A stretch of DNA of 64,000 nt from a virus, in IMG/VR virus record IMGVR_UViG_3300023174_000094, positions 1-64,000 of that record. The stretch is one strand, 5' to 3'. Numbering within the stretch: the first letter of the stretch is position 1; each line of letters begins with the position of its first letter. Below are positions 4,648 through 16,332 of the stretch, in pieces. The translations under genes and the position numbers were made by a program. The notes under the pieces were generated by a model. The model made no database searches, was not told where the DNA came from, and worked only from the letters and a program-made list of their open reading frames with translations.

Positions 4648-6042
4648 TTATTTAAGCGGATCTCTATACTTAATCTTGCGAATAGAAACCATTGATTTGT
4701 CAATATTTGCATTCCCATCAGTTATAGGTCCACCAACAACCCAAGCATCACAGGTTCTTTGTCCTGCACACTTAAAGTCAAAAATTTCGCAATATCCGAG
4801 GTTTGCTATGTTGATTACAGCATAGGCGATATCTTCACCGCCAAGACCTTCAGCCATAGCCTCTTTCATATAAGATGTTTGAATAAAAGCCGCACAATTT
4901 TTGCATCGTGCAGTTTTTGCTTCTTCAACTGTGGTATGAAAAATATCTGCTTTTCTTTGCCAGAACTCTGTATTTTCAAGAGCTGGATTCATTGGTCCAT
5001 ATGCAGCTTTATCAATAGCTTCTTGTCTATAAGATATATTTACCTCAATGTCTTGTGTAGCTGCTGGATATCCATTAATCATTTCTTCTGATTTTCCCAT
5101 TTCGGAATCATCAGACATATCTTCATTATCTACTTGAACAACTCCATCTGATATAATTGCAAATCGGCACTTACCTTCGCTCTCAACTTGTTGAGCAATA
5201 ATTTTACAAACACCATTGCCATCATACAAAACGCAATTTGAACACTTAACACCAATATCTTTTACATCATTCTCTTCTGGTGAATCATAACCAGCCCAGA
5301 TACCAGTCTGGTCTTCATTGAACTTACCATACAGGTTAGCAAGCATGGTCAACATGTCGGCAAGAACAGCTTCTTCCTGCGCCAAATCCTCGGCTACCTT
5401 CTCTACTGAATCAATTGATTTTGAAACCGTTCTGTAACCACCACCACGCTTTTTATATTCACGGACAAGCCATGCATTTGCGTAGGCGGATGGATAAACA
5501 TCAAACTTCGCTTTAGCCTCAGCCTTGACTCGGGCATAAAGGGCTGGGTTTGTCGGAACATTGCGAGATGCTTTCTCAACCTGTGTTGAAACATTGATCG
5601 GCTTCTTATCTTCCCTGGTTTGGGATGATTCAGCTGTGCGCTTACGCCTAACGGCTGATGCGATTTGCTCAGGTGTCATTCTTGCAGCACGAGCGGCTGG
5701 AACACATTTTGGATACTTACCAGAACTTGCATCTGCTCTACCGCATGGCTCAAATCCACCACCAGCTTTTGGTCTTGAAAGATCAACCCATTTTTCTTTA
5801 AACCACTGGGTGAGACTTTTTTGAACCATGTATAGATCAATTACATCTTCTGATAATTGTAGGGCTAATTCTTCTGTTGTTTTTTCAAATTTAAATTCAC
5901 CCATAGCAGTTGCTTGAGCAAGAGCTTTTTTTCTTGCGTCAGTCATTGATTTCTTATTTCCCTGAGTGTATGTATAACAAGCTCCAGAATCACCCCATTT
6001 ATAACCTGGCTTACCATCTTTTGAGCAATTATTAATCGGCAT
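4648..6042 (-). CDS. DUF5872-like protein with Cys-rich C-terminus
   Basis: 464 aa. The N-terminus (CSKDGKPGYKWGDSGACYTY) and the block WVDLSRPKAGGGFEPCGR...YPKCVPAARAARMT, then NVPTNPALYARVKAEAK and YPSAYANAWLVREYKKRGGG, match from memory the DUF5872-type module common in phages. The C-terminal third has two Cys clusters (CSNCVLYDGNGVCKI and ARCKNCAAF...CEIFDFKCAGQRTC) reminiscent of high-potential iron-sulfur-like or zinc modules. Such proteins are usually suspected to be virion-associated. It sits far from the head genes, on the opposite strand. Confidence 0.65.
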   Translation of the reverse strand: MPINNCSKDGKPGYKWGDSGACYTYTQGNKKSMTDARKKALAQATAMGEFKFEKTTEELALQLSEDVIDLYMVQKSLTQWFKEKWVDLSRPKAGGGFEPCGRADASSGKYPKCVPAARAARMTPEQIASAVRRKRTAESSQTREDKKPINVSTQVEKASRNVPTNPALYARVKAEAKAKFDVYPSAYANAWLVREYKKRGGGYRTVSKSIDSVEKVAEDLAQEEAVLADMLTMLANLYGKFNEDQTGIWAGYDSPEENDVKDIGVKCSNCVLYDGNGVCKIIAQQVESEGKCRFAIISDGVVQVDNEDMSDDSEMGKSEEMINGYPAATQDIEVNISYRQEAIDKAAYGPMNPALENTEFWQRKADIFHTTVEEAKTARCKNCAAFIQTSYMKEAMAEGLGGEDIAYAVINIANLGYCEIFDFKCAGQRTCDAWVVGGPITDGNANIDKSMVSIRKIKYRDPLK

Positions 6043-6065: not shown

Positions 6066-6353
6066 TTATTGATAAACGCTATATAAGTCATCACGACCCC
6101 ATCTTTGAACGGGTATCTTTACATCATGATAATAAGCATAAGCGTCTTCTGATGAATAGTATATTCTAGCATAGGCTTGTAGGGCACCTTCATCATAGAC
6201 TGGGCAATCAGGGTTTGGGTCTAAGTATAAAGCTTTGTAGTGATACTTATCTCCTTCCCAATGTATTGCATTAGCAACGGTTAGTTTCTTAAAGCAATAC
6301 GGACAAATTTTTTCAGGATAAGGAAAATCCTCAATCACTCTCCCCAAAATCAT
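6066..6353 (-). CDS. small protein with CPYC zinc-type motif
   Basis: 95 aa. KICPYCFKKL near the N-terminus gives one CxxC; only a single later Cys (DCPVYDE) is seen, so a full zinc ribbon is not certain. The rest is rich in Tyr and aromatic residues. Function unknown. It overlaps the upstream gene by 23 nt, consistent with translational coupling. Confidence 0.6.
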   Translation of the reverse strand: MILGRVIEDFPYPEKICPYCFKKLTVANAIHWEGDKYHYKALYLDPNPDCPVYDEGALQAYARIYYSSEDAYAYYHDVKIPVQRWGRDDLYSVYQ

Positions 6354-8380: not shown

Positions 8381-10309
8381 ATGTCACTATTAACAAAAGA
8401 ATTTATCGCAAAGTACGATACACAAACCCCGCCTTGGGGTTTTGGCGGTCTAGGGGAGATTGTATTCCTTAGGACATATAGCAGAAAGATTGAAGGCACT
8501 GATGCTACGGAGTCCTGGACACAAACTATTAAAAGAGTTATTGATGGCGCTGTAGAGATTGGCGTTCCATACACGCAAGAAGAAGCAGAGGCTTTGTTTG
8601 ACCACATGTTTAATTTGCGTTGCTCCGTTGCTGGAAGAGCTTTATGGCAATTAGGCACACCACTTGTTTCACAATTTTCTGGAACATCTCTTAATAATTG
8701 CTTTTACACAAACATTGAGAAGATTCAAGACTTTGAATTGCTTTTTGATTATCTAATGCTTGGCGGTGGAGTTGGATTCTCAGTTGAGCGTTCTAAGATT
8801 CACGATCTTCCGAAAGTGAAGAAAGTAAATTATATTACTGCAGAAAGATCAGCAGACGCTGATTTCATTGTTCCAGACTCACGACAGGGTTGGAGAGAAT
8901 TGCTTCACAAAGTTCTTGAGTCGTATTTCCACACTGGGAAGTCTTTTACATATTCAACAATTCTTATTCGTGAATATGGCGCTCCGCTAAAGACCTTTGG
9001 TGGAATTGCATCTGGTCCTGGCGCTCTTGTTGAGGGCTTAATTGATATTTGTAAAGTTCTTGATGCAAGAGTTGGAAAGAAAGTTCGCTCTGTTGATGTG
9101 TTGGATATTTGCAATATTATTGGTCGCATTGTAATCTCAGGCTCATCACGCCGTTCAGCACAGATTGCAATCGGTGATCCTGATGATGTGTTGTTCCTTC
9201 GTGCCAAAAACTGGGGTAGTGGTAATGTTCCAGCTTGGAGATCAAACAGTAACAATAGTATTTATGCAGACAGTTATGATGAAATTATTGCAGAATTCTG
9301 GAAAGGTTATGACGGAACTGGCGAGCCATATGGTTTGTTAAACAGAAAACTTGCAAGAACACATGGAAGACTCGGTGAGAAGTCACCAGACCCAAGTATT
9401 GAAGGTTTTAATCCTTGTGCAGAAATTGCACTTGCTGATGGTGAGTCATGCAATCTTGCAACAATTTTTTTGCCAAACATTGAATCGCTTGCGCAGATGA
9501 TGGAGGTTTCTAGACTTCTGTACATGTTGCAAAAGCAAGTTACTAGACTTTCATACCCTTATGAAAAAACAAATAGTATTGTTCACAAGAATGCTCGTCT
9601 TGGTCAATCAATTACTGGAGTGTTGCAATGCAGTGAAGTTCAAATTGGTTGGCTTTCAAAGACTTATGAGTACTTGAAGAATTTTGATAAGGCTTATAGC
9701 AAGGAGCGTGGATGGAATCCATCTGTTCGCTTAACCACAGTTCAGCCTTCAGGTACATTGTCATTGCTACCTGGAGTCACCCCTGGTATTCACCCAGCAT
9801 TTGCTAAGTATTACACAAGAAGAGTTCGCTTTAGCTCTGTAGATCCGCTAGTTGATGCTTGTAGAAAGCGTGGTTATAAAGTTGTTTGGGATATTGGCTT
9901 GGATGGTCGTGAAGATCACACCAGATATGTTGTTGAATTCCCATGCAAATCACCAGAGGGATCTATCCTTGCCTCAGAAATGACAGCTGTACAGCAACTT
10001 GAGGTGGTTCAGTCAATGCAGAAGGAGTGGGCGGATAATGCTGTCTCAGTAACTGTTTATTATCGTAAGGAAGAGCTTCCTGCGATTAAAGAATGGTTGA
10101 GTGAGAATTATGATAATGGTGTTAAGTCGGTATCTTTCCTTCTTCATGTTGATCACAACTTTCCTCTTCCTCCATATGAAGAAATTAGTGAAGATGAATA
10201 TAACAAATCTGTTGCAAAACTTGATTTTTCAACACCAATTCATCAAAATGCTACAGACTTAACCCTTGATATGGATAATTGTGCTACAGGTGCATGCCCA
10301 GTCAGATAA
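8381..10309 (+). CDS. nrdJ: adenosylcobalamin-dependent (class II) ribonucleoside-triphosphate reductase
   Basis: 642 aa, single-chain RTPR type. The thiyl-radical site is in NPCAEIAL (C346, E348); the partner redox cysteines are NNCFY (C107) and GESCNL (C357); the C-terminal shuttle pair is C634 and C639 in CATGACPVR. It converts NTPs to dNTPs in the cytoplasm for phage replication using host-made B12, without oxygen or a separate radical subunit. It is shorter than the Lactobacillus enzyme (739 aa), but all key residues are present. Start ATG 8381 follows CGGAGG at good spacing. Class II RNRs are common in phages of B12-using actinobacteria. Confidence 0.93.
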   Translation: MSLLTKEFIAKYDTQTPPWGFGGLGEIVFLRTYSRKIEGTDATESWTQTIKRVIDGAVEIGVPYTQEEAEALFDHMFNLRCSVAGRALWQLGTPLVSQFSGTSLNNCFYTNIEKIQDFELLFDYLMLGGGVGFSVERSKIHDLPKVKKVNYITAERSADADFIVPDSRQGWRELLHKVLESYFHTGKSFTYSTILIREYGAPLKTFGGIASGPGALVEGLIDICKVLDARVGKKVRSVDVLDICNIIGRIVISGSSRRSAQIAIGDPDDVLFLRAKNWGSGNVPAWRSNSNNSIYADSYDEIIAEFWKGYDGTGEPYGLLNRKLARTHGRLGEKSPDPSIEGFNPCAEIALADGESCNLATIFLPNIESLAQMMEVSRLLYMLQKQVTRLSYPYEKTNSIVHKNARLGQSITGVLQCSEVQIGWLSKTYEYLKNFDKAYSKERGWNPSVRLTTVQPSGTLSLLPGVTPGIHPAFAKYYTRRVRFSSVDPLVDACRKRGYKVVWDIGLDGREDHTRYVVEFPCKSPEGSILASEMTAVQQLEVVQSMQKEWADNAVSVTVYYRKEELPAIKEWLSENYDNGVKSVSFLLHVDHNFPLPPYEEISEDEYNKSVAKLDFSTPIHQNATDLTLDMDNCATGACPVR

Positions 10310-10362: not shown

Positions 10363-10695
10363 ATGTCGTCAGATATGATTAAAAGTAAAAAACTTTGGGT
10401 TCCAGAAAGAAGATATGGAGTTTGTGTCTACTTTACAAAAGATGGCGAAGCTTTGTCCGATGGCGATGGAGTTCTTTCAGCAGAAGGTATTGTTGATGAC
10501 CCATCCATTGAAAGAAGAGTCCTTCAGGCTGGTAAGTACTGGTCAGGCGATGATGACGGATATATTAGATGGGTTGCTGGTGCTAGAAAAATTAGTGCAT
10601 CTGAAAGAGATGATCAAACAGAAAGATTAGCTGCAGGTTTTGTAGCTGACCCTTATGAAGACATGTTTGATGAGCACTTTGGAAATAGGGGTTAA
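10363..10695 (+). CDS. hypothetical protein upstream of portal
   Basis: 110 aa. Contains KKLWVPERRYGVCVYFTKDG and KYWSGDDDGYIRWVAGARK, aromatic-rich and probably beta-structured, with an acidic C-terminus (DPYEDMFDEHFGNRG). No family recognised. It begins at a leaderless-type ATG and ends two bases before the portal ATG, so it is the first gene of the head operon, where terminase genes normally lie, but it shows no terminase motif. Confidence 0.65.
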   Translation: MSSDMIKSKKLWVPERRYGVCVYFTKDGEALSDGDGVLSAEGIVDDPSIERRVLQAGKYWSGDDDGYIRWVAGARKISASERDDQTERLAAGFVADPYEDMFDEHFGNRG

Positions 10696-10696
10696 C

Positions 10697-12331
10697 ATGG
10701 AAAGAAAAATGGAAGTTGTTGAAGACTTTATTGTTGAAAATGAAATAGATGATATTTCATATATTGGCAATCTTGAAAAAGTAGAAGAGTATGATCCTTT
10801 TGATTCCGTAAAAATTTCTACGCTATCGCCAAAAATGAAAAGAAAAGCGCAAAGGCTTCAGAAGAAGCATGAAGGTGCTGATGGCACTCCATCTAAATAT
10901 ATTGATCCAGAAAGAGTTAGTGGTTATTCGCTTTATGACATTGTAAATCCACCTTATGACTTAGATACGCTTGCTGGTCTTTACGATCAAAGTTCAATTC
11001 ATTACGCTGCAATTAACGCTAGGGTTATGAACACTGTAGGTCTTGGTTATAGTTTTACTGAAACACTGAAGGCAAAAAGAAAGATTGAAAGAGCTCAAGA
11101 TGATCCAGCAAAGCTAGAGCGTGTAAGAAATTCAATGCAGGATCTTAAAGAAGGTCTTGACGAACTTTTTGAAAATTTAAATGTTGAAGAAACACTTATT
11201 GAAACACTAGTCCGTGTCTGGCAAGATGTTTTGACTGTGGGTAATGGATACCTGGAAATCGGTAGAAACAATTCGGGTCAGATTGGCTACATTGGTCATG
11301 TTCCAGCAACATTGGTTCGTGTAAGAAGAAAGCGTGATGGCTATGTGCAGATTGCAAAAAGCAATAAGATTCAAGCAGTCTTCTTTAGGCAGTTTCAAGA
11401 TAAAGAAACTCAAGATCCAATTAATAACGATCCAAAGCCGAACGAGTTAATTCACTTTAAAATTTATTCACCAAACAATACTTACTACGGTGTTCCTGCA
11501 GCCGTTTCTGCAGCGGCGGCAATTATCGGAGACAAGTTTGCAAAGGAATACAATATTGACTACTTTGAAAATAAAGCTATCCCTCGCTATGCAATTATTT
11601 TAAAGGGTGCAAAGCTGAGTAACAAGTCTAAAATGGAATTGATTAACTACTTTAGAAATGAAGTTAAAGGTCGTAATCATGGAACTTTGGTTATACCAAT
11701 TCCGTCAAGCATCGGTTCAGATGCAGATATTAAATTTGAAAAGCTTGAAGCTGGAGTGCAAGATGCTTCTTTTGATAAGTATCGTAAATCAAACAGAGAT
11801 GAAATTCTTGTAGCAAACAGAGTGCCAGCTCCAAAGGTTGGAGTTTATGATAACGCTAACCTGGCAGTGTCAAGAGATGCGGATAAGAGTTTTAAGATGC
11901 AAGTAATTGGACCAGATCAAGCTGTTATTGAAAAGAAGCTTAATAGATTGATTGCAGAGTTTACAGATATGGTTCAGATCAAACTAAACAAGATTGATCT
12001 TATTGATGAAGATATTCAATCAAGAATTAATGATAGATATCTTAGAACAGAAGTTATTACACCTAATGAGGTTAGATCACAAATTGGTCTTCCTGAAAGA
12101 ACAGAGGGTGATGATGTTCTTCCTTTCCCAACCAATGTTAAGAAAGAGCAAAACGAATCTGGAAATACTGGACCAGGTGCTCCAGTAGGAAATTCTAATA
12201 ATGACTCTGCTAATCCGCCAAAGTCACCAACTGGTGATGGCGCAACCAGTGATCCTAGAGCTGATGGCGCTCAAGCCGAGCGTGGTCAGAATCAAGACAA
12301 TGGTACTAATAATGATTCAGGAGGTAACTGA
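10697..12331 (+). CDS. portal protein (PBSX/HK97-type)
   Basis: 544 aa. The central region (FAKEYNIDYFENKAIPRYA, LVANRVPAPKVGVYDNANL, FKMQVIGPDQAVIEKKLNRL) is typical of PBSX-type portal proteins, which form the dodecameric DNA-entry ring of the capsid. The C-terminal ~70 aa is disordered (Pro/Asn/Gly-rich). I chose ATG 10697 (MERKMEVVED), preceded by AGGGG; an in-frame upstream ATG at 10655 would overlap the previous gene and adds unconserved-looking sequence. The stop overlaps the next ATG (TGATG). Confidence 0.88.
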   Translation: MERKMEVVEDFIVENEIDDISYIGNLEKVEEYDPFDSVKISTLSPKMKRKAQRLQKKHEGADGTPSKYIDPERVSGYSLYDIVNPPYDLDTLAGLYDQSSIHYAAINARVMNTVGLGYSFTETLKAKRKIERAQDDPAKLERVRNSMQDLKEGLDELFENLNVEETLIETLVRVWQDVLTVGNGYLEIGRNNSGQIGYIGHVPATLVRVRRKRDGYVQIAKSNKIQAVFFRQFQDKETQDPINNDPKPNELIHFKIYSPNNTYYGVPAAVSAAAAIIGDKFAKEYNIDYFENKAIPRYAIILKGAKLSNKSKMELINYFRNEVKGRNHGTLVIPIPSSIGSDADIKFEKLEAGVQDASFDKYRKSNRDEILVANRVPAPKVGVYDNANLAVSRDADKSFKMQVIGPDQAVIEKKLNRLIAEFTDMVQIKLNKIDLIDEDIQSRINDRYLRTEVITPNEVRSQIGLPERTEGDDVLPFPTNVKKEQNESGNTGPGAPVGNSNNDSANPPKSPTGDGATSDPRADGAQAERGQNQDNGTNNDSGGN

Positions 12332-12591
12332 TGAGTGAAATGTCAATGGTATTTTCAATGCCAAATGTTACAAGTAGTAATGGTGTTGTGTCCATTGGGT
12401 CACATACATCTGAAATAGGGTTTATGAACCAATCTGCAGATTTTGCAGATATTAAATTAAATGGAAAATTTATTGTAAAAATTGGTCATGGACAAACGGA
12501 GGCGCATTTTTATAATGTGTTTGCAGGGGATTATACAACTTTTGAAATTCTTACCGCAAATACTGTAATATCAATGTATGCCCTTGGTTAA
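12331..12591 (+). CDS. small beta-rich virion protein, paralogue 1
   Basis: 86 aa. Shares with the next gene the pattern N.TSS.GVV.IGSHT, LNG, GDYTT.E.LTAN..I...A.G, so the two arose by duplication. No family recognised. Position between portal and protease suggests a head or decoration protein. Its ATG overlaps the portal stop (TGATG), so translation is coupled. Confidence 0.7.
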   Translation: MSEMSMVFSMPNVTSSNGVVSIGSHTSEIGFMNQSADFADIKLNGKFIVKIGHGQTEAHFYNVFAGDYTTFEILTANTVISMYALG

Positions 12592-12600
12592 GGAGGAAAA

Positions 12601-12867
12601 ATGGATTTTGGAAGTTTAGTATATTCAAACACTGGTATTACAAGCTCAAGTGGTGTCGTCAATATTGGAAGTCATACAAATGCTATTCATTTGTGTAATT
12701 TAAATTCAACAACATCTGCAAGCGTTAATCTTAATGGGAGATACACTGTTTTGTGCCCCCATACACCATCTCAGTCATCTGCTAGATATATTCAAATATT
12801 TGGCGATTACACAACTGTTGAAGTATTAACAGCAAATTGCACTATTGCTTTATTTGCTATTGGATAA
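12601..12867 (+). CDS. small beta-rich virion protein, paralogue 2
   Basis: 88 aa, diverged copy of the preceding protein (shared SSSGVVNIGSHT, LNGRYTVL and FGDYTTVEVLTAN). AAGGAGG lies directly before the ATG. Probably a head-associated or decoration protein by position; the duplication could allow mixed oligomers. An AT-rich inverted repeat (12874-12892) follows the gene. Confidence 0.7.
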   Translation: MDFGSLVYSNTGITSSSGVVNIGSHTNAIHLCNLNSTTSASVNLNGRYTVLCPHTPSQSSARYIQIFGDYTTVEVLTANCTIALFAIG

Positions 12868-12916: not shown

Positions 12917-15265
12917 ATGACTGATTTTAATATTTCATTCCCTATTGATATGATCAAAAAGGAACAACGAATTGTGAGTGGTATTGCTACCGCAGATAAT
13001 ATTGACAAATCTAACGATATTGTTGATTTTGAGGCTTCAAAAGAAGCTTTTGCTAATTGGGGTGGAAATATTCGTGAAATGCATGCGCCAATTGCTGTTG
13101 GCAAGGCTGTTAATTATGAGCCAGTAACAATTACTGACAAAGATGGAAACACATATAATGCTTTTAAGGTAGAGGCATATATCTCAAAAGGTGCCGAGGA
13201 TACTTGGCAAAAAGTCCTTGATGGCACTCTTCGTTCTTTTTCTATTGGCGGAAAAGTCATTAAAAAAGAAGAGATGGCTAATAAAATGTACAATGGAAGA
13301 CCGATTAATATTATTAAAAAATATGTTCTAGGCGAACTTAGCCTTGTAGATAACCCAGCAAATGCTTTAGCGGTTATTGACCTTGTAAAAATGAATAACG
13401 AGGGTGGTTTAAATTACGCTCTTGATTGCGATTTGGATTGTCAATTAGCAAAAGCAAAACAACCTTTGAAAGACCCTAAGGGTGGATTGACAGCTGCTGG
13501 AAGAAGACATTTTAAAGAAACAGAGGGTGCCAATCTAAAACCAGGCGTTAGAGGTGCAGCAGATACTCCAGAAAAAATGCGCCGCAAAGGTTCATTCTTG
13601 ACTAGATTTTTTACCAATCCATCTGGTCCAATGAAAAAGCCAAACGGTGAGCCAACAAGGCTTGCCCTCTCAGCAGCAGCTTGGGGTGAACCTATTCCTC
13701 AAAATGCTCAAGATGCGGCTGAATTAGCCGCTAAAGGAAGAAGATTGTTAGAGCGATATCAGAATACTAAAGAAAAATTTGATATTGAGAATGAATTTGA
13801 AAATATTACTCTTGAAGAGTCAATACTTAAAGGAATTGCGGATCAATTAGAGGATTGCGACTGTGGTTGTGGTTCTTGCGGTAATTTAGAAAAAGATGGT
13901 CTTGGTGCTGGCGGTGGGTCTCCAGCTGTTTCTGTAAGTACAGACAATTCTGAGTCAAAGTATCCATCACGAAACGGGATTAAAAGCCCAACAATTCCTG
14001 GATTCCCTTCTGGTTATCCAAAGTTTAGATCAAAAAGGAAAAAGAAGAAGGAGAAAAATATGAATAGTGAAGATCCTATCAGTAAAGAGGTGAGTGGTGT
14101 GAACAGTACCGTTGCATCACTTCAGGAGCTCCTTGCGAATATGACTGTATTTTATGCGTCAGCTCATAGAGCTCACTGGAATGTAGAAGGTGTTGACTTT
14201 GCTCAATATCATGAGCTTTTTGGAGAAATTTATGAAGATGCTTATGGTTCAATAGATCCAACAGCAGAGCTTGTAAGAAAGCTTGGCGCATTCCCTCCGA
14301 CACTCTCAGAATCTGAGGATATGGCTATGTTTGAGGATGATTCATCCACTACTAGCGCAAGAGATTTAGCTATGGATCTTTACATAAAAAATATGGGTCT
14401 CCTTGCAGTTCTTAAGTCTGTTTTTGATGTAGCAAATGCTGCAAATGAGCAAGGTGTTGCAAACTTTGTTGCGGAAAGAATTGATATGCATCAGAAATGG
14501 GACTGGCAGCTTTTGGCTACCCTTAGAGTTGATGGCGTTCAAATCCCTTCTTTAGTTGAAGATGACACTGAAGAAAACGACACTGAAGAACCAACCGCTA
14601 GAGACATCATGAATATGATTAATGATGTTTTTGGTAGTTCAACAAATAAGTCTTTTAATGCACAAACTGTTAAAGAATTTGATACAATTGATCAAGAAGA
14701 AAATAAAAATATGGAATCAATTATTAAGCAAGATATTGAATTGCAGGAAAACAATAATTATGATAAGATCTCTGACATGAATGAACAAGAAGCAAATAAG
14801 CTTAGTCTTTTGAAGAAGTTTGTTGGTTGGTTGTTCCAAGATGTCAAGGAAACAACTTCAACTTCCGTTGAAGTAAGTGGAAACACACAGGAGGAAGAAA
14901 TGGATATTAACATCCTTAAAGACGCTCTGAGTGCTGTTGTTGATGAAAAACTGGCTAGTTTTGCTACTTCAATCAAGGAAGAAGTTGAAGCCTCTGTTCA
15001 GGAAAAAATTGAAGCAGTTGCTAAGAGTTTTGAAGTTCAGAGTGCTGAACTGCAACAAAAGCTGGAAACAGCAGAGCTTGCTCTATCAGAGCAAACAGAA
15101 AAAGTTGAGGCATTTGCCGCAGCTGGCGCTGTAAAGAAAAGCGTAGATCCAGAAGACGCTGAAGAAGAGGAGGGTGAAGCACTTATTAAGTCAGCTCCAA
15201 CTTCTTTCTGGAAGAATACATATTTGCCACAGGAGTTAATTAACTCCCTAGGTTATAGGTCATAA
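12917..15265 (+). CDS. prohead protease fused to DUF6321-like, Dps-like and scaffold domains
   Basis: 782 aa, far longer than usual prohead proteases. Residues ~1-160 resemble XkdF/S78-type proteases, with H56 (REMHAP) and S109 (SFSIGG) as likely catalytic residues. Residues ~175-290 (PLKDPKGGLTAAGRRHFKE, MRRKGSFLTRFF, GEPTRLALSAAAWGEPIP) match the DUF6321-type module. Residues ~395-525 form a Dps/ferritin-like helix bundle with H420, H432, D447 and E451. Residues ~660-782 are an acidic coiled coil typical of scaffolds. Internal ATGs with excellent RBSs (14060 and 14900) suggest nested products. It directly precedes the major capsid gene. Confidence 0.8.
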   Translation: MTDFNISFPIDMIKKEQRIVSGIATADNIDKSNDIVDFEASKEAFANWGGNIREMHAPIAVGKAVNYEPVTITDKDGNTYNAFKVEAYISKGAEDTWQKVLDGTLRSFSIGGKVIKKEEMANKMYNGRPINIIKKYVLGELSLVDNPANALAVIDLVKMNNEGGLNYALDCDLDCQLAKAKQPLKDPKGGLTAAGRRHFKETEGANLKPGVRGAADTPEKMRRKGSFLTRFFTNPSGPMKKPNGEPTRLALSAAAWGEPIPQNAQDAAELAAKGRRLLERYQNTKEKFDIENEFENITLEESILKGIADQLEDCDCGCGSCGNLEKDGLGAGGGSPAVSVSTDNSESKYPSRNGIKSPTIPGFPSGYPKFRSKRKKKKEKNMNSEDPISKEVSGVNSTVASLQELLANMTVFYASAHRAHWNVEGVDFAQYHELFGEIYEDAYGSIDPTAELVRKLGAFPPTLSESEDMAMFEDDSSTTSARDLAMDLYIKNMGLLAVLKSVFDVANAANEQGVANFVAERIDMHQKWDWQLLATLRVDGVQIPSLVEDDTEENDTEEPTARDIMNMINDVFGSSTNKSFNAQTVKEFDTIDQEENKNMESIIKQDIELQENNNYDKISDMNEQEANKLSLLKKFVGWLFQDVKETTSTSVEVSGNTQEEEMDINILKDALSAVVDEKLASFATSIKEEVEASVQEKIEAVAKSFEVQSAELQQKLETAELALSEQTEKVEAFAAAGAVKKSVDPEDAEEEEGEALIKSAPTSFWKNTYLPQELINSLGYRS
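14048..14053 (+). promoter_or_regulatory. internal Shine-Dalgarno for Dps-like product
   Basis: AAGGAG 6 nt before the in-frame ATG at 14060 (codon 382), inside a Lys-rich linker coding region. Confidence 0.55.
14060..15265 (+). CDS. nested Dps-like/scaffold product (internal start)
   Basis: In-frame internal start giving a 401-aa protein that begins MNSEDPISKEVSGV just before the ferritin-like domain. That domain has the Dps signature HWN at H420 (numbering of the long protein), H432 twelve residues later, D447 and E451, which match the spacing of E. coli Dps ferroxidase residues H51, H63, D78 and E82; the D67 equivalent is Gly436. Dps proteins oxidise and store iron and protect DNA. Separate synthesis from the RBS at 14048, or release by the protease, would give a capsid-associated Dps. 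Whether it is made separately is inference. Confidence 0.5.
   Translation: MNSEDPISKEVSGVNSTVASLQELLANMTVFYASAHRAHWNVEGVDFAQYHELFGEIYEDAYGSIDPTAELVRKLGAFPPTLSESEDMAMFEDDSSTTSARDLAMDLYIKNMGLLAVLKSVFDVANAANEQGVANFVAERIDMHQKWDWQLLATLRVDGVQIPSLVEDDTEENDTEEPTARDIMNMINDVFGSSTNKSFNAQTVKEFDTIDQEENKNMESIIKQDIELQENNNYDKISDMNEQEANKLSLLKKFVGWLFQDVKETTSTSVEVSGNTQEEEMDINILKDALSAVVDEKLASFATSIKEEVEASVQEKIEAVAKSFEVQSAELQQKLETAELALSEQTEKVEAFAAAGAVKKSVDPEDAEEEEGEALIKSAPTSFWKNTYLPQELINSLGYRS
14900..15265 (+). CDS. nested scaffold protein (internal start)
   Basis: In-frame ATG at 14900 (codon 662) with AGGAGG 5 nt upstream, the best RBS in the region. The 121-aa product (MDINILKDALSAVVDEKLAS...) is a charged coiled coil ending in SFWKNTYLPQELINSLGY, typical of capsid scaffolds with a capsid-binding C-terminus. 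It mirrors the lambda C/Nu3 arrangement in which scaffold is translated from within the protease gene. Confidence 0.65.
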   Translation: MDINILKDALSAVVDEKLASFATSIKEEVEASVQEKIEAVAKSFEVQSAELQQKLETAELALSEQTEKVEAFAAAGAVKKSVDPEDAEEEEGEALIKSAPTSFWKNTYLPQELINSLGYRS

Positions 15266-15285: not shown

Positions 15286-16332
15286 ATGGCAACACAAGAA
15301 GAAATTTTGGCGAAAGCCAATGAAGTAACAACTACGGTTGTTTCAAATAGCAGCCCAGTAAGCGGTGGTGGTGGTCTTCTCTACCCAGAGCAGGCAAACC
15401 GTTTCTTGGACTTCATCGTGGATCAGTCGGTTCTCATGCAGAACGCAAGAGTGGTTCGTATGCGTACACCTCAGATGGACATTGATAAGGTGTCTGTTGG
15501 TACTCGTTTGCTTGCAAAAGCAACTGAAGCAACCGATGATGGTGCAAACGCAGCAGTAACATTCAGCAAGGTTTCGCTTTCAACTGTAAAGCTCCGTCTT
15601 GACTGGAACATTTCAACAGAATCGTTGGAAGACAACATTGAAGGTGCATCGTTGGAAGACCATATCGCACAGATCATGGCTCGCCAGACTGCAAACGACA
15701 TGGATGACCTCTTCATTAACGGTAACACATCGTCAAACAACGGTCTCTTGAAGGCTCTTGATGGCTTTAACAAGTTGGCAAGAACATCGGGTCGTGTTGT
15801 AGATTTCGCTGGAAACAATGTTTCTAGAGCAACTTATGACAAGATTCTCCGTAACTTGCCAAGCAAGTACTTGCAGCGCCGTAATGAACTGAGATTCTTC
15901 TCAGGTCCAGGTGTTGTTCAGGACTCAATCTACAGCTTGGGTAATCCAAACTCGGCAACTGACGCAACAGCAGGCGCACCTGCTCCAATGTCAACGGCTG
16001 GTGAAATGGCATTCTTGCAAGGTTCAATGAGAGCAAATGGTGGTCCAGGTGCAACTGGTCTTGCACCATTTGGTATTAACCTCATTGAAGTGCCTTTGAT
16101 GCCAGAAACGGCAGCTGGTGACTACTCAGGAACAGCTGGTTCGCATGGTTTCGTGGAACTTACATTCCCTAACAACCGTGTAATCGGTATCCACCGTGAC
16201 ATCACAGTGTACCGCCAGTTCAAGCCAAAGACTGACACAATTGAGTACACACAGTACATGAGAGTAGCAAACAACATTGAAAATGCTGATTCATATGTAA
16301 TCGGTAAGAATGTTAAGTTGCGCACACTCTAA
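15286..16332 (+). CDS. major capsid protein (HK97-fold)
   Basis: 348 aa, directly after protease/scaffold and closed by a strong terminator, as expected of the most expressed head gene. LLYPEQANRFLDFIVDQSVL followed by RMRTPQMDIDKV and KLRLDWNISTESLEDNIEG fits the N-terminal arm and spine helix of HK97-like capsid proteins; the C-terminus has FPNNRVIGIHRDITVYRQF, typical of this group. Codon use is more G/C-ending than in the neighbours, consistent with high expression. GGAGG precedes the ATG by 10 nt. Confidence 0.88.
   Translation: MATQEEILAKANEVTTTVVSNSSPVSGGGGLLYPEQANRFLDFIVDQSVLMQNARVVRMRTPQMDIDKVSVGTRLLAKATEATDDGANAAVTFSKVSLSTVKLRLDWNISTESLEDNIEGASLEDHIAQIMARQTANDMDDLFINGNTSSNNGLLKALDGFNKLARTSGRVVDFAGNNVSRATYDKILRNLPSKYLQRRNELRFFSGPGVVQDSIYSLGNPNSATDATAGAPAPMSTAGEMAFLQGSMRANGGPGATGLAPFGINLIEVPLMPETAAGDYSGTAGSHGFVELTFPNNRVIGIHRDITVYRQFKPKTDTIEYTQYMRVANNIENADSYVIGKNVKLRTL

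Follow-up and report, generated by a model that had tools for sequence, protein, structure and literature searches.

Gene organization and neighbourhood

The window, i.e. the whole stretch of 64,000 nucleotides of DNA from an aquatic phage that we analysed (positions 1 to 64,000 of the IMG/VR record IMGVR_UViG_3300023174_000094), contains at positions 12917-15265 (+) one open reading frame encoding 782 aa with the domain order protease, DUF6321, linker, Dps, linker and scaffold-like tail. This gene is flanked upstream by a portal protein gene (10655-12331, +; PF04860, 5.6e-31; phrog_12, 1.5e-55) and directly downstream by the gene of an HK97-type major capsid protein (15286-16332, +; PF05065 (Phage_capsid), 1.8e-8; phrog_1623, 6e-80). 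Portal and protease are separated by two small paralogous ORFs (window 12331-12591 and 12601-12867, about 46% identical), which gave no match in a PHROG search and are kept in relatives, in some as a single copy. A B12-dependent ribonucleotide reductase gene (window 8381-10309) was found a short way upstream of the head genes. Another window gene (4648-6042, -) matched DUF5872 (1.3e-13), a domain also present beside a Dps remnant in the corresponding slot of loci L083 and L084. No second ferritin domain was found in the whole viral record (G000, 106,648 bp).

The head maturation protease domain comprises aa 1-165 (12917-13411, +) and matched phrog_9427 at aa 4-162 (4e-50). Peptidase S78 (PF04586) scored 19.1 bits on the window protease, below the curated cut-off of 21 that some relatives pass. 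AlphaFold yielded a modest model of this domain (pLDDT 77), for which a PDB comparison returned no meaningful match, and the identity as a protease thus rests on PHROG. H56, S109 (within FSIGG) and E140 were invariant across 17 protease sequences and are candidate catalytic residues. DUF6321 follows at aa 185-256 (13469-13684, +; PF19846, 2e-28); it is basic (pI 10.75) and in most pairs the slowest-evolving part of the protein (dN/dS 0.01-0.07), and it is exchanged for another domain in some relatives. The adjoining linker ends in a basic tract, KFRSKRKKKKEKN (aa 362-381; 14000-14059, +; pI 10.8, 9 of 20 residues K or R), with the basic stretch RSKRKKKKEK lying immediately upstream of the Dps domain. 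Behind Dps, an acidic linker (14552-14899, +) with a motif conserved among relatives, NYDK...LSLLKKFVGWL, leads to the scaffold-like core M662-S782 (14900-15262, +). This tail (aa 662-782) is acidic, 35-99% identical across relatives and weakly matched (9e-4) the C-terminal end of phrog_9427 (positions 355-447 of 453). Members of the phrog_9427 family from Streptomyces, Rhodococcus and other phages likewise combine an N-terminal protease with a C-terminal scaffold-like segment; among the matches listed, its cultured members showed the protease part only and no Dps match.

Identity of the Dps domain and its ligands

An earlier note had read the gene as a prohead protease-scaffold fusion with a Dps/ferritin-like domain encoded between the two in a single reading frame, and domain searches bore this out. 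Pfam Ferritin (PF00210) matched aa 400-537 with an E-value of 2.3e-10 for the full ORF and 4e-12 for the domain alone (41 bits, above the curated cut-off of 24.5), and phrog_3636 matched aa 395-536 (4e-22). The domain therefore lies where the note had placed it (residues ~395-525) but reaches slightly further towards the C-terminus. Together with its N-terminal segment it occupies aa 382-545 (14060-14551, +; Pfam core 14114-14527). The best solved chain was Bacillus brevis Dps (1n1q; aa 401-534, 2e-14), in whose alignment HWNV...YH...ID..AE of the window stood in register with HWNV...LH...ID..AE of Dps. This register puts H420 (14174-14176, +), H432 (14210-14212, +), D447 (14255-14257, +) and E451 (14267-14269, +) at the Dps ferroxidase ligand positions, as the note had proposed from their spacing of 12, 27 and 31 residues from the first histidine; the clustering of these ligands across subunits is read from the register of the alignment rather than from a dodecamer model. 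None of the four varied among 11 full-length relatives, across a diverse set of 26 phage Dps domains or among the 47 fused Dps domains tested (47/47), which come from several phage families.

The four-helix bundle expected by the note was obtained when aa 382-545 were modelled with AlphaFold (pLDDT 91.5). The model has four long helices and a short BC helix, as in Dps (helices at 6-41, 47-74, 82-88, 100-127 and 131-157 of the segment), and a Foldseek search with it matched Dps crystal structures at a TM of about 0.8-0.9. E-values, fold and conservation together exclude a chance match, and both the sequence comparisons and the structure model solidly support a genuine Dps-type domain in which all four ligands are preserved. 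For pairs that had diverged enough, the Nei-Gojobori dN/dS of Dps was 0.04-0.22, much as for the protease, and by this measure the domain is under purifying selection.

The Dps mini-ferritins of B. brevis (1n1q), B. subtilis (MrgA, 2chp) and V. cholerae (3iq1) have this bundle, short BC helix and HWN...H...D...E ligand pattern in common with the window domain, at about 26-32% identity. Unlike them, the window domain is one section of a phage protease-scaffold protein; it has an acidic pI (4.3) and carries no lysine-rich tail of its own. DNA binding through a basic tail or surface is not universal in Dps proteins. Both basic tracts of the ORF, DUF6321 and RSKRKKKKEK, lie upstream of Dps, so that a predicted protection of DNA by this acidic, tail-less domain would hinge on these tracts or on its chemistry rather than on classic tail binding.

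Internal starts and probable nested products

A Shine-Dalgarno-like AAGGAG (14048-14053, +) stands 6 nt ahead of an in-frame ATG at 14060, exactly where the Dps segment begins. The same combination recurs in most Dps carriers with a long linker, and also in the Dps-less loci L040, L051, L056-L058 and L099. Exceptions are L001 with a GTG, L014 with an altered Shine-Dalgarno sequence and the L003-L008 branch, which has none at this start, so that Dps may occur there solely in the low-copy full-length protein.

The second internal start lies at the scaffold core (M662, ATG 14900), where the sequence reads AGGAGGAAGAAATG, with a Shine-Dalgarno AGGAGG (14889-14894, +) 5 nt ahead of the ATG. A strong, properly spaced Shine-Dalgarno sequence was found at the scaffold-core ATG in 70/70 distinct proteins versus 37/855 other in-frame ATGs; the 70 proteins share descent and are not 70 independent events, and the motif persists down to 54% capsid identity. 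L060, L113 and L114, which fell outside the position window of this count, also have it at their scaffold ATG, and so does the distant 1063-aa protein of L153. The signal is kept, sometimes in another register, while the encoded residues vary (QEEEM, VEEQDM, MEDQM, EGDDIDM). As in the lambda C/Nu3 type, the scaffold is thus preceded by an in-frame internal start with a ribosome-binding site. From these signals, the scaffold core M662-S782 is probably also made alone, and both a Dps-scaffold and a scaffold-only product are likely. L080 encodes the protease as a separate ORF, with Dps still fused to the scaffold. In L073, a stop codon (~6072-6074) within DUF6321 represents either a mutant or a sequencing error; the internal starts would still yield scaffold there.

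Dps as an optional cassette among relatives

With the Dps domain as query, 38 loci were retrieved from viral contigs. At 16 of these, protease, DUF6321 and Dps, together with the scaffold where the contig reaches that far, are encoded in one frame; some of the 16 contigs are near-copies of one another. Across this set, Dps domains are 60-71% and scaffolds 58-93% identical. The capsid protein as query gave 80 loci, including one extra Dps locus (L080). Of the 79 rows in which protease, scaffold and capsid were visible, 62 lacked Dps, 15 carried it and 2 retained a remnant.

To account for this distribution, the capsid (MCP) tree requires 10 changes, and well-supported branches force at least 7 of them. 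Between loci with and without the domain, the Dps segment is taken out in frame: L040, whose protease and scaffold are 98-99% identical to those of the window, has no Dps, and L051 matches L011 on either side of the Dps gap. L003, L005 and L007 have a block of ~600 bp around Dps, most of which is 98-100% identical to that of L008, with flanks of only ~65-85%, and dS between L003 and L008 was 0.02 in Dps versus 1.27 in the protease. These values indicate recent exchange of the cassette by recombination, and the comparison of these sequences establishes that Dps travels as a module.

Other domains occupy the same interval. In L083 and L084 a core-deleted Dps adjoins a DUF5872 domain. A domain of ~100 aa (GRGGTSVG...RYFPRH...GYPSNGRIAW) takes the place of DUF6321 in L064 (2619-2960), L068-L072, L080, L104 and L112. 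It matched phrog_2859, a family of uncharacterised function, gave no match in a Pfam search, and resembles a domain of L153 as well as the N-terminal part of the L164-type Dps-S78 proteins. Judging by the core-deleted Dps beside DUF5872 and the replacement of DUF6321, the stretch from protease to scaffold serves as a general slot. As a side observation from few cases, Dps is decayed in L083/L084, where the scaffold became a separate frame, and intact in L080, where it is fused to the scaffold.

Recurrence with other head proteases

The earlier note had suggested looking for the fusion elsewhere, and it is present in other phages well beyond the at least 16 IMG/VR contigs of the window's own group. 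A search that used a Dps alignment as query yielded 80 loci, mostly ones not obtained before. Many of their Dps ORFs are fusions with head proteases, which belong to at least five different families and stand in varying order relative to Dps. In L164, L174 and about ten more, Dps is on the N-terminal side of an S78 protease, with no scaffold behind in the L164 type. It follows a phrog_80-type protease in L188 and L146, and is joined to a phrog_18402/859-type protein in L152, to phrog_2753 in L185 and to a distant phrog_9427 member in L153. Proteins of L125-L129 and L192 have an N-terminal part like a Bacillus phage prohead protease (33% for L127). Elsewhere Dps is a separate gene beside head genes, e.g. 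in L029 and L010; stand-alone Dps accounted for 42/77 loci examined. The protein of one phage ORF (L165, 4611-7004) contains both Dps and a zeta-toxin domain (PF06414, 5.8e-19).

Similar fusions are deposited in BFVD under the names "Prohead protease" or "Ferritin/DPS". Four proteins of uncultured Caudovirales (A0A6J5N5R9, A0A6J7WIS1, A0A6J7XDU5 and A0A6J7WPK9; 333-763 aa) have the Dps fold, and three of them are named Prohead protease by automatic annotation only. A scan of bacterial genomes added one further fusion, L200 (phrog_2859-like, Dps, S78), on a 17.5-kb contig of an Actinomycetota MAG that is possibly a phage. No Dps fusion was found among the cultured phages of the collection, and the capsid protease genes of DSL-LC01, a lake phage related to L152, had no ferritin domain. 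Phage Dps proteins and protease-scaffold genes with internal starts were already known; the open-access papers searched did not describe a Dps located inside a head protease or scaffold protein, and this combination appears to be new.

A probable cargo of the virus head

Since the fusion arose repeatedly in unrelated phages, sequence comparison makes it probable that Dps enters the virus head as cargo. The involvement of at least five protease families, the in-frame internal starts and the mobility of the cassette strengthen the idea of a procapsid cargo, and the repeated independent joining to head proteases in different orders argues that location in the procapsid is the point. With moderate confidence we therefore favour a reading in which Dps is an optional cargo that scaffold and protease carry into the procapsid as part of nested products, and that is trimmed and retained there and protects the genome by oxidising Fe(II). 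The sequence-level ground for this is firm: the identity of the domain, its intact ligands, the conserved start signals, purifying selection, and the mobility and recurrence of the cassette.

According to this reading, the cargo region of a protease-scaffold gene acquired an exchangeable cassette encoding a Dps that looks catalytically intact. The gene would give three nested proteins: the full-length protein of 782 aa, a Dps-scaffold protein of ~401 aa from ATG 14060 and a scaffold of ~121 aa from ATG 14900. Assembling together with the capsid protein, the scaffold tail would bring Dps into the procapsid, where the protease would then cleave the linkers and the scaffold, and the compact Dps bundle would stay inside with the DNA. 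Oxidation of Fe(II) with peroxide by Dps would protect the packaged or newly injected genome. A contact of the acidic Dps with DNA would require the upstream basic tract or DUF6321. The Dps cage consists of twelve subunits, and tethering or a low copy number might block its formation. We infer the products, their packaging, cleavage and retention, ferroxidase activity, cage formation and DNA protection from the features described above.

Individual parts of this scheme have parallels in known systems. In lambda, protease (gpC) and scaffold (Nu3) share one gene and the scaffold is made from an internal start. The lambda gene is without Dps, and the window gene adds a second internal start ahead of the cargo domain. 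The C-Nu3 complex of lambda has been described (PMC3224144). The internal head proteins of T4 use targeting sequences on the core to enter the head, and the prohead protease gp21 trims them (PMC5694885); they are encoded by separate genes and use a short targeting peptide, whereas in the window the cargo lies covalently within protease and scaffold. Encapsulins such as M. xanthus EncA with EncB/EncC enclose a ferritin-like protein in an HK97-type shell (PMC9321382). These are cellular organelles with separate cargo genes, while the window encodes a DNA-packaging phage head, and no homology is claimed.

Alternatively, Dps could work in the infected cell as an auxiliary stress gene that limits oxidative damage of the host, with the strongly expressed capsid gene as a vehicle and Dps either freed by the protease or tethered. 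Scaffold and protease are late and abundant proteins, and more than half of the loci examined have Dps as a stand-alone gene. For such stand-alone Dps and ferritins of phages, the literature assumes a role in helping the infected cell against stress (PMC6802176 for freshwater phages; PMC8008677 for gut Gratiaviridae). This would leave unexplained why Dps lies repeatedly inside unrelated head-protease polypeptides in differing orders and why the scaffold tail is still on the internal-start product, and we regard the explanation as rather unlikely.

Dps is placed between protease and scaffold and, as a family, oligomerises naturally, so that a bundle or dodecamer might instead space or nucleate the scaffold during assembly, with ferroxidase activity being incidental. 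Close relatives such as L040 have no Dps, however, and assembly can thus do without it, while the invariance of all four metal ligands is also difficult to reconcile with an incidental activity; a structural role seems improbable. An equally doubtful explanation is selfish or neutral shuffling, by which Dps would be a functionless passenger in a permissive linker. The slot indeed takes several domains (DUF6321, DUF5872, phrog_2859-like) and Dps was gained and lost, down to the core-less remnant of L083/L084, but dN/dS values well below 1, ligands conserved in every fused domain and independent recurrence speak against it. That a separate Dps gene was joined by missed stops in assembly or gene calling, as the split frames of L080 and L083/L084 and the stop in L073 might suggest, was rejected together with a chance match on the grounds of independent contigs, fold and selection: at least 16 contigs, originating from many metagenomes, have the frame open, and similar fusions are deposited in BFVD.

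If the preferred reading, Dps as a cargo of the head, is generalized, tailed phages might have, in their protease/scaffold genes, an exchangeable cargo slot for bringing enzymes into the head, with Dps as the most recurrent known cargo and capsids as iron-oxidising, genome-protecting compartments that parallel ferritin-loaded encapsulins. This generalization is tentative, and we would put it slightly short of an even chance. The nested starts and the swappable slot suggest a natural route for loading proteins into phage heads, and the interest would be high if packaging were proven. Phage Dps has so far been read as a helper in the infected cell; if the cargo reading is true, some virions bear an antioxidant, iron-handling enzyme together with their genome. 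Dps riding in the head would bear on the survival of phages in sunlit water, on phage-borne iron (the "Ferrojan horse" question) and on the origin of ferritin-like cargo in HK97-type shells such as encapsulins.
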